In this document: one piece after another, positions 12,564 to 36,043 of the stretch | Numbering within the stretch: the first letter of the stretch is position 1 | How the letters are laid out: the number at the start of each line of letters is the position of its first letter | NCBI GenBank assembly: GCA_016192705.1 | Contig: JACPTQ010000044.1 | Location: forward strand, 1 to 64,000 | DNA length: 64,000 bases | From: Deltaproteobacteria bacterium | Lineage (GTDB): Bacteria; Myxococcota; JACPTQ01 | Reading direction: 5' to 3' | The notes under the pieces: model-generated | What the model saw: the letters and a program-made list of their open reading frames with translations, nothing else | Database searches by the model: none | Told to the model about the DNA's origin: nothing | Position numbers and translations under genes: made by a program

Positions 12564-12635
12564 GCGAAGGCGGGAGCGGGGGCGAAGGCGGGGGCGGGAG
12601 CGGGTGCGGTTGCGGAAGCGGGTGCGGAAGCGAGG
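12564..12635 (+). repeat. GCGNNN hexamer array, 12 units
   Basis: Twelve consecutive six-base units of the form GCGNNN (GCGAAG, GCGGGA, GCGGGG, GCGGGT, GCGGTT, GCGGAA and so on). Similar arrays in the same orientation occur at 13484-13537 and 13623-13688. This one lies directly upstream of the leader hairpin of the plus-strand four-helix-bundle gene. Confidence 0.85.
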
Positions 12636-12649
12636 TTGCCTGTTCGCGA

Positions 12650-12736
12650 CCTCCTTTTGCGCCCGCGTTCTCGTGGGCCCCCTTCGCGCTCCGCGCTTCG
12701 GTTGAGGGCCCACTCGAACTTGGGCTCCAAAGGAGG
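12650..12736 (+). promoter_or_regulatory. Leader hairpin that can sequester the Shine-Dalgarno site
   Basis: CCTCCTTTTGCGCCC (12650-12664) can pair with GGGCTCCAAAGGAGG (12722-12736), which contains the AAAGGAGG ribosome binding site of the gene starting at 12743. Inside it, GTGGGCCC (12673-12680) pairs perfectly with GGGCCCAC (12706-12713). The stem would hide the ribosome binding site. The facing gene has an equivalent leader with unrelated sequence. Confidence 0.7.
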
Positions 12737-12742
12737 TTCCCG

Positions 12743-13072
12743 ATGAATCGTTACTCCGTTCCCACGACGGCTTCCCTCGAACGTCTCGATTGCTATCGTG
12801 TTGCGTGTGACTTCGCGCGACTCGCGCAATCATTGCCAATCGCAAATCCAGTGCTTCGAGATCAGTTTCGTCGAGCCTCGCTGTCAGTCCTCACCAATGT
12901 CGCCGAGGGAGCGGGTCGGGTCGCGAAAGCGGACAAACGCCGATGCTATGCCATCGCGCGCGGCGAAGCGTGTGAAAGCGCGGCGTTGCTGGATTTGATG
13001 GACGACGCGCCAGCCGAGGTGGGCGCGCTGCTCAGTCGCGTCATCGCGATGCTCACGCGGCTCGTGCGATGA
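12743..13072 (+). CDS. Four-helix-bundle protein (S23 / 23S rRNA IVS type), copy 1
   Basis: 109 residues from ATG 12743, with AAAGGAGG at 12729-12736. The pattern RLDCYRVACDFARLAQSLP, then LRDQFRRASLSVLTNVAEGA, then a helix with RRCYAIARGEACESAALLD is that of the S23/IVS family, small helical proteins first seen in 23S rRNA intervening sequences and related to the Avd proteins of diversity-generating retroelements. The biochemical role is unsettled; binding of nucleic acid is assumed. No reverse transcriptase or rRNA is nearby. Its last 20 bases overlap those of the convergent copy 2. Confidence 0.85.
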   Translation: MNRYSVPTTASLERLDCYRVACDFARLAQSLPIANPVLRDQFRRASLSVLTNVAEGAGRVAKADKRRCYAIARGEACESAALLDLMDDAPAEVGALLSRVIAMLTRLVR

Positions 13073-13394
13073 GCTTCGAAAGCAGTGCGCAAACTCGATC
13101 GGCGATCGCGTCCAGCTCGGCGACCGTTGGCTCGTCGACGTATCCCCATATCGCCGCGAGCTTCAGGGCTGCGCGCGCTTCGCGACACGACCCACGAGCG
13201 ATTTCGAAGAATCGCGCTTGGTCTCGCAGCGAACTTTTCCCGTCACCCTCTGAAATATTTAGAACGATGCTCGCCGTTGCACGTCGAAGTTGATCTTCGA
13301 GTGAACGATCTTTGCGGCGCAGCGAATCGAGCACAGGACGCACGCGACTCGCGAACTGAAACGCCACGTCGTACGCGATGAACCGATGAGACAT
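13053..13394 (-). CDS. Four-helix-bundle protein (S23 / 23S rRNA IVS type), copy 2
   Basis: 113 residues from ATG 13394, preceded by GAGAGGAGG. Family pattern: YDVAFQFASRVRPVLDSLRR, LEDQLRRATASIVLNISEGD, and ARFFEIARGSCREARAALKL. It is only distantly similar to copy 1, so the pair is not a recent duplication. Being convergent with 20 shared bases at the 3' ends, the two transcripts could base-pair. Its leader is a hairpin containing its ribosome binding site. Confidence 0.85.
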   Translation of the reverse strand: MSHRFIAYDVAFQFASRVRPVLDSLRRKDRSLEDQLRRATASIVLNISEGDGKSSLRDQARFFEIARGSCREARAALKLAAIWGYVDEPTVAELDAIADRVCALLSKLIARAA

Positions 13395-13399
13395 GAGAA

Positions 13400-13467
13400 C
13401 CTCCTCTCGAAGCCGCTGAGCGCGGCCCCCGCAAGGAACAGGGCCCGCGAAGCGGCAAGAGAGGAGG
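13400..13467 (-). promoter_or_regulatory. Leader hairpin that can sequester the Shine-Dalgarno site
   Basis: On the minus strand CCTCCTCTC (complement of 13459-13467) pairs perfectly with GAGAGGAGG (complement of 13400-13408), the ribosome binding site of copy 2. The stem continues with GCCGCT/AGCGGC and further GC pairs. Apart from pairing with the ribosome binding site, the sequence does not resemble the leader of copy 1. Confidence 0.75.
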
Positions 13468-13483
13468 CGCGATCGGGGAGAAA

Positions 13484-13537
13484 GCGGGAGCGGATGCGGA
13501 TGCGGTTGCGGAAGCGGGTGCGGAAGCGGAAGCGGGG
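13484..13537 (+). repeat. GCGNNN hexamer array, 9 units
   Basis: Nine consecutive GCGNNN units lie just outside the leader hairpin of copy 2 and run directly into the palindromic repeat at 13542. Confidence 0.85.
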
Positions 13538-13541
13538 ATTT

Positions 13542-13609
13542 GACGCAAAGGCGCAGAGACGCCACGGGAAGTGGTCTCATTCCTTGCGTCTTTGCGCCTT
13601 GGCGTTGAA
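13542..13609. repeat. Palindromic ACGCAAAG-type repeat, copy 2
   Basis: GACGCAAAGGCGCAGAGACG at one end and CTTGCGTCTTTGCGCC near the other form an inverted repeat closely related to copy 1 at 141-216, including the shared GGGAAGTGGT. It is flanked on both sides by GCGNNN arrays. Confidence 0.8.
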
Positions 13610-13622
13610 ATCTTCTTCGGAA

Positions 13623-13688
13623 GCGGAAGCGGAAGCGGGAGCGGATGCGGAAGCGGGTGCGGGAGCGGGAGCGGACGCGGGAGCGGAC
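13623..13688 (+). repeat. GCGNNN hexamer array, 11 units
   Basis: Eleven GCGNNN units end just before the 3' end of astD. No gene is supported between 13395 and 13699; that stretch holds only the leader hairpin, two hexamer arrays and the palindromic repeat. Confidence 0.85.
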
Positions 13689-13699
13689 CCGACCGCCCC

Positions 13700-15232
13700 T
13701 CAATCTGGCTCGTACGGAGTTTTCGGCGCGGGGCCAAGGCCGGGCCACTTTTCGACATTACCAACCGGCTCTTCAAGATGCGAAACGGGGGTAACACACC
13801 AGCGAATCGCGTGGAGCCCAACGGCGCGATGATTTCCCGACGCGCCGGCGCCGCCAAACGGGAGCCGTGCATCGGCGCCAACGGTCGGCCGATTCCAGTT
13901 GATGAGTCCCGCCCGAACCTCGTTTGCGACCGCGCGATACGATTTTTCGCTCTTTGTGAACACACTCGCCACGAGCCCAAACGGCGTGTCGTTCGCGATT
14001 TCAATCGCCGCGTCGATGTTCTTCGCGCGATAAATCGCAACGTCGGGTCCAAACAACTCGTCGCTCTGGTAGGCGCTCGACCCTGAACGTGCGACGACCT
14101 CGTGAACCGACGGCGCGACGAAATTCCCCTTTGCGCGAGCGTCGAACCGGCCCCCATCGATCAGCGCGACCGCACCTTCCTTGCGTCCCAGGGCGACGCG
14201 TCCAAGAAAACGCTCCGCGATTGCTTCGGACGCGAGGGGCCCCATGAAAGTGTCGGCCGCGCGTGGATCGCCGACGCGAATGGCCTTCGCGCGTTCCATA
14301 AATCGCTTGACGAATTCGTCGGCGACTTTCCGCGTCACGACAACGCGCGACGATGCCGTGCAGCGCTGGCCGGACGTGATGTAACCGCCAATCAAACACT
14401 CGTGCACCGCGAGGTCGATGTCCGCGTCGTCGAGGACAACCGACGCATTTTTTCCGCCCATTTCGAGGACGAGCATCTTTCCTGGTTGCGTTGCGCAAAC
14501 CGCTTCGATCGCGCGACCCGTTGCGACCGACCCGGTAAAAAAGATGCCATCAACGCGGGGACTCGCGGCAAGCCGCGCGCCGATATCGCCCCCGCCCTGC
14601 ACCATGTTGAAAACGCCCTTCGGTAAATTCGCGTCGTCGATGATTTCCGCGTAGACCTGGCCGACGAGCGGCGTCACGTCGCTTGGCTTGAAGACAACGG
14701 TGTTCCCTGTGACGAGCGCTGGCACAACGAAACCGTGCGCGAGAAGCGCCGGGAAGTTAAACGGGCAGATGACGCCGATGACGCCAAGCGGTCGGTAGCG
14801 GCATCCGCCCCGCACGCCGGCCGGCACGAAATCCGCGACGTCGCGAAGCCCCGCGTCGACGACGACGTTGAGCCGTCCCGCCATCGACTCAACCTCGCGA
14901 CGCGCTTCCCAAAGGGGTTTTCCGACTTCGCGTGTGATCGCGGCCGCCAGATCCTCGCGCCGATTCACGACCGCTGCGCGCACCTTTCGGATGGCGTTGA
15001 TTCGGTCTTCAAGGGACCGCGCGGCCCACGCACGCTGGGCTTCACGGGCTGCCAGAATCGCCTCGTCGGCCGCCACGCGCGAAAATGAAAACGCGCCGAC
15101 AACATCGTCGAGGTTTGCGGGGTTTCGCTTTTCGATGGCGCCGTCTGCGTGTCGCGGCACGCGAAACTTTCCGTTGATATAGTTTCCGCGCGGGATCGCG
15201 GCACGCTTGTCGTTCAACACCGCTTGCGTCAT
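13700..15232 (-). CDS. astD: N-succinylglutamate 5-semialdehyde dehydrogenase
   Basis: Oxidises N-succinylglutamate semialdehyde to N-succinylglutamate with NAD, step 4 of the arginine succinyltransferase (AST) pathway. About 510 residues from ATG 15232 (a GTG codon lies directly before). Aldehyde dehydrogenase signatures: cofactor site FTGSVATGRAIE, catalytic Glu in LEMGGKNASVVL, catalytic Cys in SGQRCTASSRVV, and ELFGPDVAIY. The N-terminal GNYINGKF and the pairing with astA favour AstD over other aldehyde dehydrogenases. The start overlaps the astA stop (TGATG). astB, astC and astE are not in the window. Confidence 0.88.
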   Translation of the reverse strand: MTQAVLNDKRAAIPRGNYINGKFRVPRHADGAIEKRNPANLDDVVGAFSFSRVAADEAILAAREAQRAWAARSLEDRINAIRKVRAAVVNRREDLAAAITREVGKPLWEARREVESMAGRLNVVVDAGLRDVADFVPAGVRGGCRYRPLGVIGVICPFNFPALLAHGFVVPALVTGNTVVFKPSDVTPLVGQVYAEIIDDANLPKGVFNMVQGGGDIGARLAASPRVDGIFFTGSVATGRAIEAVCATQPGKMLVLEMGGKNASVVLDDADIDLAVHECLIGGYITSGQRCTASSRVVVTRKVADEFVKRFMERAKAIRVGDPRAADTFMGPLASEAIAERFLGRVALGRKEGAVALIDGGRFDARAKGNFVAPSVHEVVARSGSSAYQSDELFGPDVAIYRAKNIDAAIEIANDTPFGLVASVFTKSEKSYRAVANEVRAGLINWNRPTVGADARLPFGGAGASGNHRAVGLHAIRWCVTPVSHLEEPVGNVEKWPGLGPAPKTPYEPD

Positions 15233-23675: not shown

Positions 23676-24683
23676 CTATTCGCCGCCCGCGCTTGCGATT
23701 CTCGTTTTGATCGCGCGATACCGCTCGAGGAACTGCTCGTTGCGCTTCTTGAACGATTCAAAGTAGCGCCTCGCCTTGGTTCGGTCGGTTTGCCGCTTTC
23801 TCACCTCGGCGATCTTGTCGAGAATGATTCGAATATCCGAAAACGGCTTCAACAGATAACCAGCCGCGCCGTAATCGAGCGCCTGAACGGCCGACTCCAT
23901 TGATGCGTATCCCGTGATCATGATCGCTTCAATCCCATTGTATTGCGTTTTCAGGTGCCGAATGAGCTCCAGGCCAGTCATTTTCGGCAGGTTCTTGTCG
24001 GTCACAACGAGGTGGAATCGCTCCTTCGCAAGCATATCAACCGCCTCTTCCGCAGAGCCGACCGACTTCACCGCCATCCCTTCACCCGTGAGCAAATCTT
24101 CGAGAACGTTCAAAATGATTTCTTCGTCGTCGACAACGAGCACGCGATAGCTGTCGTCCGCATCGCCTCCCGGTCCACCCGCAATCTGGTCGCGCAAATC
24201 CGAAACCTCTTTGTCGAGCGCGATCATATTCTTCAAAAACCCTTCATTCAGCTCGTCGATGTCGGCAAGCAGATCCTCGCTTACGCTTGCGGCTCCGTCT
24301 CCCGATGTGCGCGCTGGTGCACGGCTCGCCCGCGCTACCGCCGCCTTCAAATCGTCAATCCCGTCTCGCTGCTTGATAAAGAAATCGTTTGCTCCGACCC
24401 GCAACGCCTCTATCGCGTACGAAACGTCCTCGGCGGCCGTCAGCACGATGACCGCGAGCTGCGGGTTGATTTCGCGCGCCGACCGCACGACGTCAAAGCC
24501 ACTCGGACCATCAAGATCAACTTCGGTGACAACGACGTCAAACGATTTCTGCTTCAGCTCTGCGAGCGCCTCGGCACACGTGGCAACCGCAGCCGTCTCG
24601 TATCCCGACTCGGAAAACAACGTCGCCAGCGCCCCGCGCATCTTCGGGCCGCGCTCAACAATGAGAATAGATTTTCGTTCCAT
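23676..24683 (-). CDS. Response regulator with two receiver domains, the first degenerate
   Basis: 335 residues. Receiver 1 (about residues 4-125) has Glu54 where the phosphoacceptor Asp belongs (FDVVVTE) and VERG in place of the acidic pair, so it probably cannot be phosphorylated. Receiver 2 (about 178-300) is complete: VVDDEE, phosphoacceptor Asp in [10 protein letters not shown], Thr in ITGYAS and Lys in LLKPF. A coiled segment ([20 protein letters not shown]) joins them and the C-terminal 35 residues are a charged helix. There is no DNA-binding or enzymatic output domain. Output is presumably by protein binding. The neighbouring sigma-54-type pilin promoter needs an AAA+ activator, which this is not. 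Confidence 0.9.
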
Positions 24684-25296
24684 GATGGTGCCACAGATTT
24701 TTTCATCGGTTGGAACGAATGTAAAGCCCCAATCCCCGGTTAAGCGGTGATGTCACTCGAGGGCGTCGGATTGGCAGAGGGCCGCGTCGGCGCGCCGAAG
24801 TCCTCGGGTCTGAATGCAATCGTGCGATAAAATCAGTGTAAAGTGGCGCCCGAAAACCCGTAGGTTTCAATGGATACTGCGCTGCAGACCCTGCGGAGGC
24901 GCGCCTTTGCGGCTCCCCTGCCAACCCGCCGCAACTCCGGACGAACCGCTTACCCGGTACGTGTTCCTCGCCCTTGAGGGTGGTACGAAGAGTTAACCCG
25001 CCGGGCGTCGACCTGCGATCGATCAACCCCCAAGCCTTATAACGGCCATACCCGGAAAACGGCGGATTTCTGATCTGCGGGCGGGGTCTGGGCAAGCGAA
25101 GGCTCGCGTCCGCAGGGGCTGAGGTGCCGACCGGGCATGGATTTGCCGCTGCCATCAGGTTTTATCGATTCTGCATTTCTCGCATTACGTCAGCCCCGAG
25201 GACGTTCGCGAGCCGGAGCGAACCCAGGCCCCGCCCGCCCCACTGAAGTCTTTTCCGTTATCCGGGGATTGGGAAATGTAAAGCTGAGAAAAAAAC
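24684..25296. other. Non-coding, GC-rich structured region between response regulator and pilA
   Basis: No frame in 24684-25296 looks like protein. 24860-25135 is dense in inverted repeats, for example GTAC...CCCTTGAGGG...GTAC around 24957-24988 and GCGAGC/GCTTGC near 25094-25109. I compared it by eye with RNase P RNA, tmRNA, 6S RNA, SRP RNA and c-di-GMP, TPP and cobalamin riboswitches and found no convincing match. It may encode an unrecognised structured RNA on either strand. Confidence 0.4.
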
Positions 25297-25392
25297 GGGG
25301 CGAGGAACGCTTCGACTGTGATAGGGTGTTTAGAGACACGCAAGCCCCTACACATCCCCAACACCCCACAGTCCCCTATCGTTCCCCGCCCC
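25297..25392 (-). terminator. Long terminator-like hairpin overlapping a six-tract G-quadruplex motif
   Basis: On the minus strand, downstream of pilA, GGGGCGGGGAACG pairs with CGTTCCTCGCCCC (12 of 13) and an inner arm GACTGTG/CACAGTC plus GGGTGTT/AACACCC continues the stem; the last arm is followed by G and seven T (25296-25289), an intrinsic terminator layout. The 5' arm also contains six runs of four G (complements of C runs at 25345-25348, 25356-25359, 25364-25367, 25373-25376, 25384-25387, 25389-25392) separated by 7, 4, 5, 7 and 1 bases. Hairpin and quadruplex use the same G tracts and exclude each other. 25393-25688 shows no gene. Confidence 0.75.
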
Positions 25393-25688
25393 TATCGCCC
25401 GGGAGAGCGACTCCAGGCGAATATGTTATGAACGAGAAGAGAGCAACGGGCGTTCCATGTGCTGCTGCAAATGGTCTTTGCGCGCGAAGTCACTGTTTCT
25501 ATGGATTATTCCGAGGGCCGTCACAGAATCTTCGCGCCGCGCAAGCTGTTTTCGGATGGATGAACGCCCCTACAGACGTGCATCGAAATCACAGGTCACC
25601 GGCCGTGAATCGACTCCACGACACTACTGTCAGGCGATTGGCTTTTTGTCAGAGGATGTCAGGTTGGATTGGAGAGGAGGCGCGGGTG

Positions 25689-26258
25689 CTATTCGAGCGG
25701 CTGGTACTTATAAAGGCCCGAGCCGCCCTGCACGTTACGGTAGGCGTCGACTCGACCGGTACGCTCGTATTGCGAAAACACTCCGTCGCAGTTCAAATCA
25801 CCCCAGGCGTGTGCCGTGAATGACGCCGCCGTGTCCGTACCGGCAGCCGAGTACTGGTACGAGTAATAGAACGGATCGTCAACCGCGAAGTTGAGCGCAT
25901 TCCAGGTTGAGTTGCTGTTCCAGATGGTCGAGCTGGTTCCACCGAACCCCGGCGCGCCGCATTTGTCTCCTGCTTGGCCGCAACAGATCCCCCTTGTAGG
26001 AGTCGGATTCTGACCCGCTGGGAATTGCTTCGCGATGATGGTGCCCGTGCGAGCCGCGAACTCTTCCTCGTAGTACGAAACCGACGAGTCGAACAACTTG
26101 CGGATGTTCATCGTTGCTTCGCTGGTCTTTGAACGGCGGATATATTTCATAAACGCCGGAATCGCGACCGCCGCGAGAATACCGATAATCGCGACAACGA
26201 TCATGAGCTCGATGAGTGTGAAGCCTTTCAGCTTCTTGCTTCTAAGCTTGCTCAACAT
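25689..26258 (-). CDS. pilA: Type IV pilin (PilA-like major pilin candidate)
   Basis: 189 residues. Short basic leader [12 protein letters not shown], then cleavage before [20 protein letters not shown], with Glu5 of the mature protein present. The hydrophobic N-terminal helix is followed by [20 protein letters not shown] and a globular domain with an early CC pair ([11 protein letters not shown]) and a late Cys (DLNCDG) suited to a disulfide loop. The leader would be cut and the new N-terminus methylated by PilD, encoded elsewhere. Transcription probably depends on sigma-54 (promoter at 26456-26471). Used for twitching or social motility. It could be a paralogue rather than the major pilin. 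Confidence 0.9.
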
Positions 26259-35080: not shown

Positions 35081-35200
35081 GTGGGAGAACTGCGCCTGTA
35101 AAGAAACAGGGTGCGACAGTCGCGTACCGAGGCCGGTTGGGGCTATCGAACTGTCGACGGAGAGAGGTACACTATAGGTGTAAGAGAGGAGGACTGGGCC

Positions 35201-36043
35201 GTGTTGGCTTTATATAAAGGTGGGTCGAAGTGTAAGGGAGGATCGGCGGGGTTTGTGCTCGTCGACCTGATGACGTCGGTGACGATCATCGGGATCTTGT
35301 CTGTGACGGCGGGCGCTTCGTACAAGCGGTACGTTGATCGGGCGGGGCTTTCGGGGTGTCTTGACCAGCTTCGCGACTGGCGGCGCTCGGCGATGGAGTA
35401 CAAGCACCACAACGACATTGGACGGTACGCGTCGAGCGGTCAGTTTTGGCAGACGTACAATCGAGGTGAGCAAGACGCGAACTACGTCTATTGCTCGAAC
35501 GACGAATCGGCGGCGGGGGTGACGGGGTTATCGCGAAGCGGCCAGATGACGACGGCCGGGGCAACGACGTTCAGCATCACGTGCCTGCACGACCATGGAA
35601 CCGCGGCGGCGTACGTTTATACGGACAACCTTTTGCCGAATGCCATCGCTGTTGCCGCGGCGGCAGGGACCGTGTCGACCTCGGGGAGCTGTCCCGGAAG
35701 CAGTGGGTCGTCGGGCTCGAGCGGATCGAGTGGCTCGGGCGAATCAAGCGGGTCGTCGGGATCGAGTGGCTCCAGCGGGTCGAGCGGCTCCAGCGGATCG
35801 AGCGGCTCATCGGGATCGAGCGGATCCAGCGGATCGTCGGGTGATAGCTCGAGTTCGGGCGATTCGAAATCGTCGGGCGACAGCAGCAGCTCCGGCGATT
35901 CGTCGAGTTCCGGCGATTCGAGCTCATCGGGTTCGTCGGGAAGTAAGTCTGGACTTGGCGACGGAACGAATCCCGGCGAGGGAAGTGGGACTGACAACAG
36001 TCCGAACGAAGGGACCGATAACCCGAGCAAATCAGGGCACTGA
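35201..36043 (+). CDS. Prepilin-like protein with long Ser/Gly repeat tail
   Basis: 280 residues from GTG 35201, with AGGAGG at 35187-35192. The N-terminus has a prepilin site: ...GGSAG, then FVLVDLMTSVTIIGILSVTA, where the residue at mature position 5 is Asp instead of the usual Glu. A globular part of about 130 residues with several Cys (GLSGCLDQL, YVYCSND, SITCLHDH) follows, then about 110 residues of Ser/Gly with scattered Asp/Glu and Lys (units GSSGSS and SSSGDSS), ending GTDNPSKSGH. A pilin-like core would be membrane-held or part of a pilus; the tail should be an extended surface-exposed string. No close family recognised. The chemosensory operon follows. Confidence 0.75.
   Translation: MLALYKGGSKCKGGSAGFVLVDLMTSVTIIGILSVTAGASYKRYVDRAGLSGCLDQLRDWRRSAMEYKHHNDIGRYASSGQFWQTYNRGEQDANYVYCSNDESAAGVTGLSRSGQMTTAGATTFSITCLHDHGTAAAYVYTDNLLPNAIAVAAAAGTVSTSGSCPGSSGSSGSSGSSGSGESSGSSGSSGSSGSSGSSGSSGSSGSSGSSGSSGDSSSSGDSKSSGDSSSSGDSSSSGDSSSSGSSGSKSGLGDGTNPGEGSGTDNSPNEGTDNPSKSGH
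35698..35945 (+). repeat. Ser-Gly coding low-complexity repeat
   Basis: Degenerate tandem 9- to 15-base units such as TCGAGCGGATCGAGTGGC encode Ser-Ser-Gly runs, then Ser-Ser-Gly-Asp runs. Such repeats are prone to length change by slippage and recombination. Confidence 0.85.

Follow-up and report, generated by a model that had tools for sequence, protein, structure and literature searches.

A G-rich terminator-like hairpin with six GGGG tracts downstream of the type IV pilin gene pilA in a member of the Myxococcota

The window, that is the whole stretch of 64,000 nucleotides analysed here (contig JACPTQ010000044.1, positions 1 to 64,000), carries on its minus strand a type IV pilin gene, a G-rich hairpin followed by a run of T, a mobile element and a response regulator gene. 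In the direction of transcription the features are as follows:

25689 to 26258, minus strand: pilA, type IV pilin precursor of 189 amino acids with a prepilin motif (Pfam N_methyl PF07963, 4e-9)
25393 to 25688, minus strand: spacer of 296 nt from the pilA stop codon to the hairpin, single copy in the genome, with weaker stems inside
25297 to 25392, minus strand: terminator-like hairpin of 96 nt with 39 pairs, the lower stem pairing 25392-25380 with 25309-25297
25392-25389, 25387-25384, 25376-25373, 25367-25364, 25359-25356 and 25348-25345, minus strand: GGGG tracts 1 to 6
25289 to 25295, minus strand: T7 tract, read as U7 in the transcript of pilA, directly after the G at 25296
25275 to 25283: first copy of the 9 bp target-site duplication CTTTACATT
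24727 to 25274, minus strand: copy of a MITE-like mobile element of 548 bp with inverted ends (T/C)CCCAATCCCCGG(A/T)TAA..
24718 to 24726: second copy of the 9 bp target-site duplication CTTTACATT
24697 to 24725, minus strand: promoter-like site TTTACA-17-AAAAAT before the response regulator gene, weak and at chance level, overlapping the duplication
23676 to 24683, minus strand: two-receiver response regulator (two stretches matching Pfam PF00072, 5e-51)

The N-terminus of the pilA product matches the NCBIfam model typeIV_PilA_Myxo at 3.6e-19, yet stays below the cut-off of that family, and the protein matches the PilA of PDB 8tj2 at 1e-13. The genome encodes a second full-length pilin (C14:54223-54756), with 39% protein identity to pilA. 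Elsewhere in the window, an open reading frame on the plus strand (35111-36043) begins with a pilin-like hydrophobic stretch (GFVLVDLMTSVTIIGILSVTA) and ends in a long tail of SGSS repeats; its match to pilins is weak. The 3' untranslated region (UTR) of pilA contains a further inverted repeat, GCGCGGCGCGAAG ... CTTCGCGCGC, at 25541-25480 of the minus strand. That this UTR might be a genomic repeat was considered and rejected, the sequence being present in a single copy.

The minus strand from 25392 to 25345, in the sense of the pilA transcript, holds six GGGG tracts in 48 nt, with loops of 1, 7, 5, 4 and 7 nt, and reads GGGG C GGGG AACGATA GGGG ACTGT GGGG TGTT GGGG ATGTGTA GGGG. With six GGGG tracts and loops of 1-7 nt, it exceeds the at least four G tracts with short loops that define a G-quadruplex (G4) motif. 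Across the 5.2 Mb of the genome (88 contigs), 49 overlapping matches were found to a pattern of three GGGG tracts separated by 1-7 nt; four of them belong to the locus downstream of pilA, which is the sole six-tract site of the genome. Markov sequences of order 1 and order 3 (10.4 Mb) gave 6 and 11 three-tract clusters, respectively, and none with four, so that the six tracts are not a chance product of base composition. The runner-up motif of the genome has five GGGG tracts (C3:121533-121580, L224, minus strand) and sits in a 123-codon open frame, the reality of which is uncertain. Tandem G-rich hexamers of the GCGGGAGCGGGTGC type are found at several places in the genome, including positions 12571-13700 of the window, L211 and L233.

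The G tracts form the 5' arm of the 96-nt hairpin. From the base upwards the predicted fold has 13 pairs, an internal loop of 6/4 nt, two runs of 7 pairs separated by a 3-nt bulge, and an apical part of 12 pairs rich in G-U, giving 27 core pairs and 39 in total. Nine pairs are G-U, and with DNA parameters the same strand folds at only -26; the wobble pairs thus favour RNA over DNA as the folding molecule. Over 126 nt the minimum free energy is -67.1 kcal/mol, against a mean of -44.9 (standard deviation 3.8) for shuffled sequences (z -5.9; 0 of 200 as low). Taken by itself, the raw folding energy does not stand out in this G+C-rich genome; in 0.86 Mb, 46 of 40,962 segments of 126 nt (0.1%) fold at least equally well. 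No second copy of the hairpin as a dispersed repeat was found in the genome, and an Rfam search of the region gave no match.

The tracts, the hairpin and the T run agree with what a sequence-only reading of the same DNA had described. On re-reading the sequence, the six GGGG tracts have the coordinates and loops that it gave, and the terminator-like hairpin that it placed 3' of pilA, with a 5' arm able to form a G4, is supported in predicted fold, T run and position. Its stem of about 26 pairs corresponds to the 27 pairs of the core, with 39 in the whole hairpin, and the G and seven T that it placed behind the 3' arm are found at 25296 and 25295-25289. The observation made in that reading is therefore real, while its interpretation is partly supported.

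In the predicted fold, tracts 1 and 4 are wholly paired with C and tract 2 has one G-U pair, most of tract 3 falls in the internal loop and most of tract 6 in the terminal loop, and half of tract 5 is in G-U pairs. Of the 24 G in the tracts, ten are outside G-C pairs, and tracts 3, 5 and 6 are largely unpaired or in wobble pairs, so that pairing in the stem by itself does not account for the G tracts; this counts against a plain terminator. The excess of tracts reflects either selection on the tracts themselves or growth by local duplication, since CGATAGGGG is directly visible twice in the G-rich region. Most likely, the capacity to form a quadruplex is a by-product of a G-rich arm that was enlarged in this way.

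The locus has the parts expected of an intrinsic terminator: a stable G+C-rich hairpin, a U-rich tract directly behind it, and a co-directional gene upstream, the stop codon of pilA being 296 nt away. In 0.86 Mb of the genome hairpins are not clearly commoner beside T runs than beside A runs, so that a hairpin with a T run is insufficient alone for a terminator call; the call made here rests jointly on stability corrected for composition (the z-score), on the length of the core stem, on the T7 tract and on the location behind a pilin gene. Among hairpins adjoining any of 432 T runs (at least six T; the same 0.86 Mb), the one downstream of pilA is the most stable. With T runs not clearly ahead of A runs in this respect, intrinsic termination is perhaps not how most transcripts end in this genome, which counts against the terminator, as do a stem far exceeding the usual terminator length and a distance from the stop codon several times that seen in relatives. 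A genome-wide survey of terminators at gene ends with a home-made gene finder gave mostly noise and is not counted as evidence; it missed the pilA site, probably owing to a spurious open reading frame on the opposite strand over the site.

Pilin genes of the phylum were compared in their 3' flanks after a protein search of GTDB contigs and 195 genomes of the phylum, which yielded about 40 pilin genes whose 3' flanks could be read; the best full-length relatives are about 33-55% identical, and the 38 related genomes share only the phylum with the present one. A compact hairpin with a T run starts 39-77 nt past the stop codon in at least 12 of the about 40 loci (L171, L174, L177, L178, L181-L183, L186, L192, L194, L198 and L199), and at L178 (GGGGCGGGGC), L181 and L182 its 5' arm is G-rich. 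As this arrangement recurs, a strong terminator is a normal neighbour of a pilin gene in the phylum. Four G3 tracts within 450 nt downstream were found at none of the about 40 other pilin loci, all of them phylum-level relatives, nor at the second pilin of the genome (C14:54223-54756), so that the G4 motif is confined to the pilA locus as far as visible.

Taken with these comparisons, the G-rich hairpin is very probably an oversized Rho-independent terminator of the pilA transcript that also protects its 3' end, and it probably acts as a block to 3' exonucleases. RNA polymerase would transcribe pilA, the 296-nt 3' UTR, the G-rich 5' arm and then its C/U-rich partner arm, upon which the hairpin would close and, together with the trailing U7, would stop transcription short of the response regulator gene. 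The 296-nt spacer with its further stems also suggests that the hairpin could end a separate small RNA derived from the 3' UTR, or could chiefly stabilise the mRNA instead of terminating it. This is unlikely, since the fold of the spacer is unexceptional (z -1.7 with the hairpin included) and it has neither a detected promoter nor an Rfam match.

The 548-bp element, which had gone unmentioned in the sequence-only reading, begins 14 nt behind the T run. Its ends at this locus, TCCCAATCCCCGGATAA... and ...TTAACCGGGGATTGGGG, are inverted, and other copies in the genome have the same ends and duplications of 8-12 bp. Forty copies were scored; their identity is 76-94% across as much as 241 bp. Exact matches to the core 17-mer GTCCTCGGGTCTGACAT number about 84 among those listed, and there are 263 with at most three mismatches, where both arms of one element can match; roughly 85 or more genomic sites, L010, L013 and L018 among them, carry a member of the family. 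It is a MITE-like family, sharing with MITEs the short length, many copies, inverted ends, target duplication and absence of a transposase gene. A coding role of the element was also considered, but the frame that stays open in several copies is broken in others, and no frame is open in all. The left end of the element was not seen in any of 38 further genomes from the phylum. The family probably breaks the assembly, since contigs end at many of its copies. Some three-tract G4 motifs (L139, L145; C5:23807, C13:25871) appear to span the right end of the element (CCGGGGATTGGGG), by which it would spread G-rich sequence. With the element subtracted, the T run is 48 nt ahead of the start codon of the response regulator gene, a spacing that makes an older role as an attenuator thinkable.

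This arrangement bears on the proposal of the sequence-only reading that hairpin and quadruplex exclude each other and so form an RNA switch. The mutual exclusion holds, as both folds require the identical G tracts and the model energies differ accordingly. ViennaRNA with a quadruplex term gives -25.2 for the 48-nt G strand (versus -6.8), -41.9 for the RNA up to the loop (versus -17.4), -51.4 for the RNA including half of the 3' arm (versus -35.6) and -60.4 for the full RNA, which folds as the hairpin. In this crude quadruplex energy model G4 would be favoured until the 3' arm is complete and the hairpin afterwards, which makes a kinetic competition physically possible. A quadruplex formed in the nascent RNA before the 3' arm could, if it persisted, block the terminator and cause read-through, originally into the response regulator gene 48 nt downstream. 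Such a switch would be in keeping with the energies of the partial transcripts, with G tracts in excess of the pairing need at a six-tract site unique in the genome, and with the close spacing to the regulator gene before the insertion. It is nevertheless distinctly unlikely: the hairpin is the predicted end state, the 548-bp element now lies between terminator and regulator gene, a conserved adjacency of pilA and the regulator gene was not seen, the locus has no sensor, aptamer or Rfam match, and the G4 motif is absent from the about 40 other pilin 3' regions and from the second pilin. On these last points the switch proposed from the sequence finds no support. Regulation would follow only if the quadruplex outlasted synthesis of the 3' arm and something shifted the balance; that a K+-stabilised RNA quadruplex in the 5' arm blocks the hairpin and so links pilin transcription to read-through into the response regulator gene is very unlikely. 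Among the titles and abstracts of open papers we found no described example of a quadruplex competing with a bacterial terminator hairpin. If the quadruplex forms first, the locus would be a natural and testable bacterial case of such competition; if the hairpin serves as a terminator and nothing more, it is an extreme example and usefully cautions that the arm of a strong terminator may be scored as a quadruplex motif.

A parallel had also been drawn with Neisseria pilE. In N. gonorrhoeae pilin variation draws on silent pilin copies as donors and requires a small RNA that starts within a G4 upstream of pilE (PMC3547852). A DNA quadruplex that initiates recombination of the pilin gene in this manner would fit a strong G4 motif adjoining pilA, with the G strand as the non-template strand. 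The motif, however, is 3' of pilA, past the stop codon, while that of pilE is upstream. A DNA search with pilA matched only itself in the assembly (88 contigs, 96.65% complete), no part of the gene having a second copy, and protein identity to the other full-length pilin is only 39%. A search for sigma-70-type promoters found none within or beside the G4. As the motif sits at the opposite end of the gene, and as neither silent copies nor a sigma-70-type promoter at the motif were found, the parallel fails, and a recombination role is extremely improbable here.

Compared with known systems, the locus resembles that of pilE in having a G4 motif near a pilin gene and differs in that the motif is downstream, overlaps a terminator hairpin, and comes with neither silent copies nor a detected sigma-70-type promoter; as two defining features of the pilE type, the upstream position and the silent donors, are lacking, it is not to be classed with pilE. 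With RNA switches of the hairpin/G-quadruplex kind and with attenuators it shares two exclusive folds made from the same G tracts, whereas the pilA site is at a gene end and not in a leader, unless the arrangement before the insertion is counted as one. With the intrinsic terminators of pilin genes of the phylum it shares a G+C-rich hairpin, a T run behind it, a co-directional orientation and a place close 3' of the pilin gene; it differs from them in having 39 pairs in place of the roughly 10-15 of compact terminators, in lying 296 nt and not about 40-80 nt from the stop codon, and in carrying six GGGG tracts in its 5' arm.
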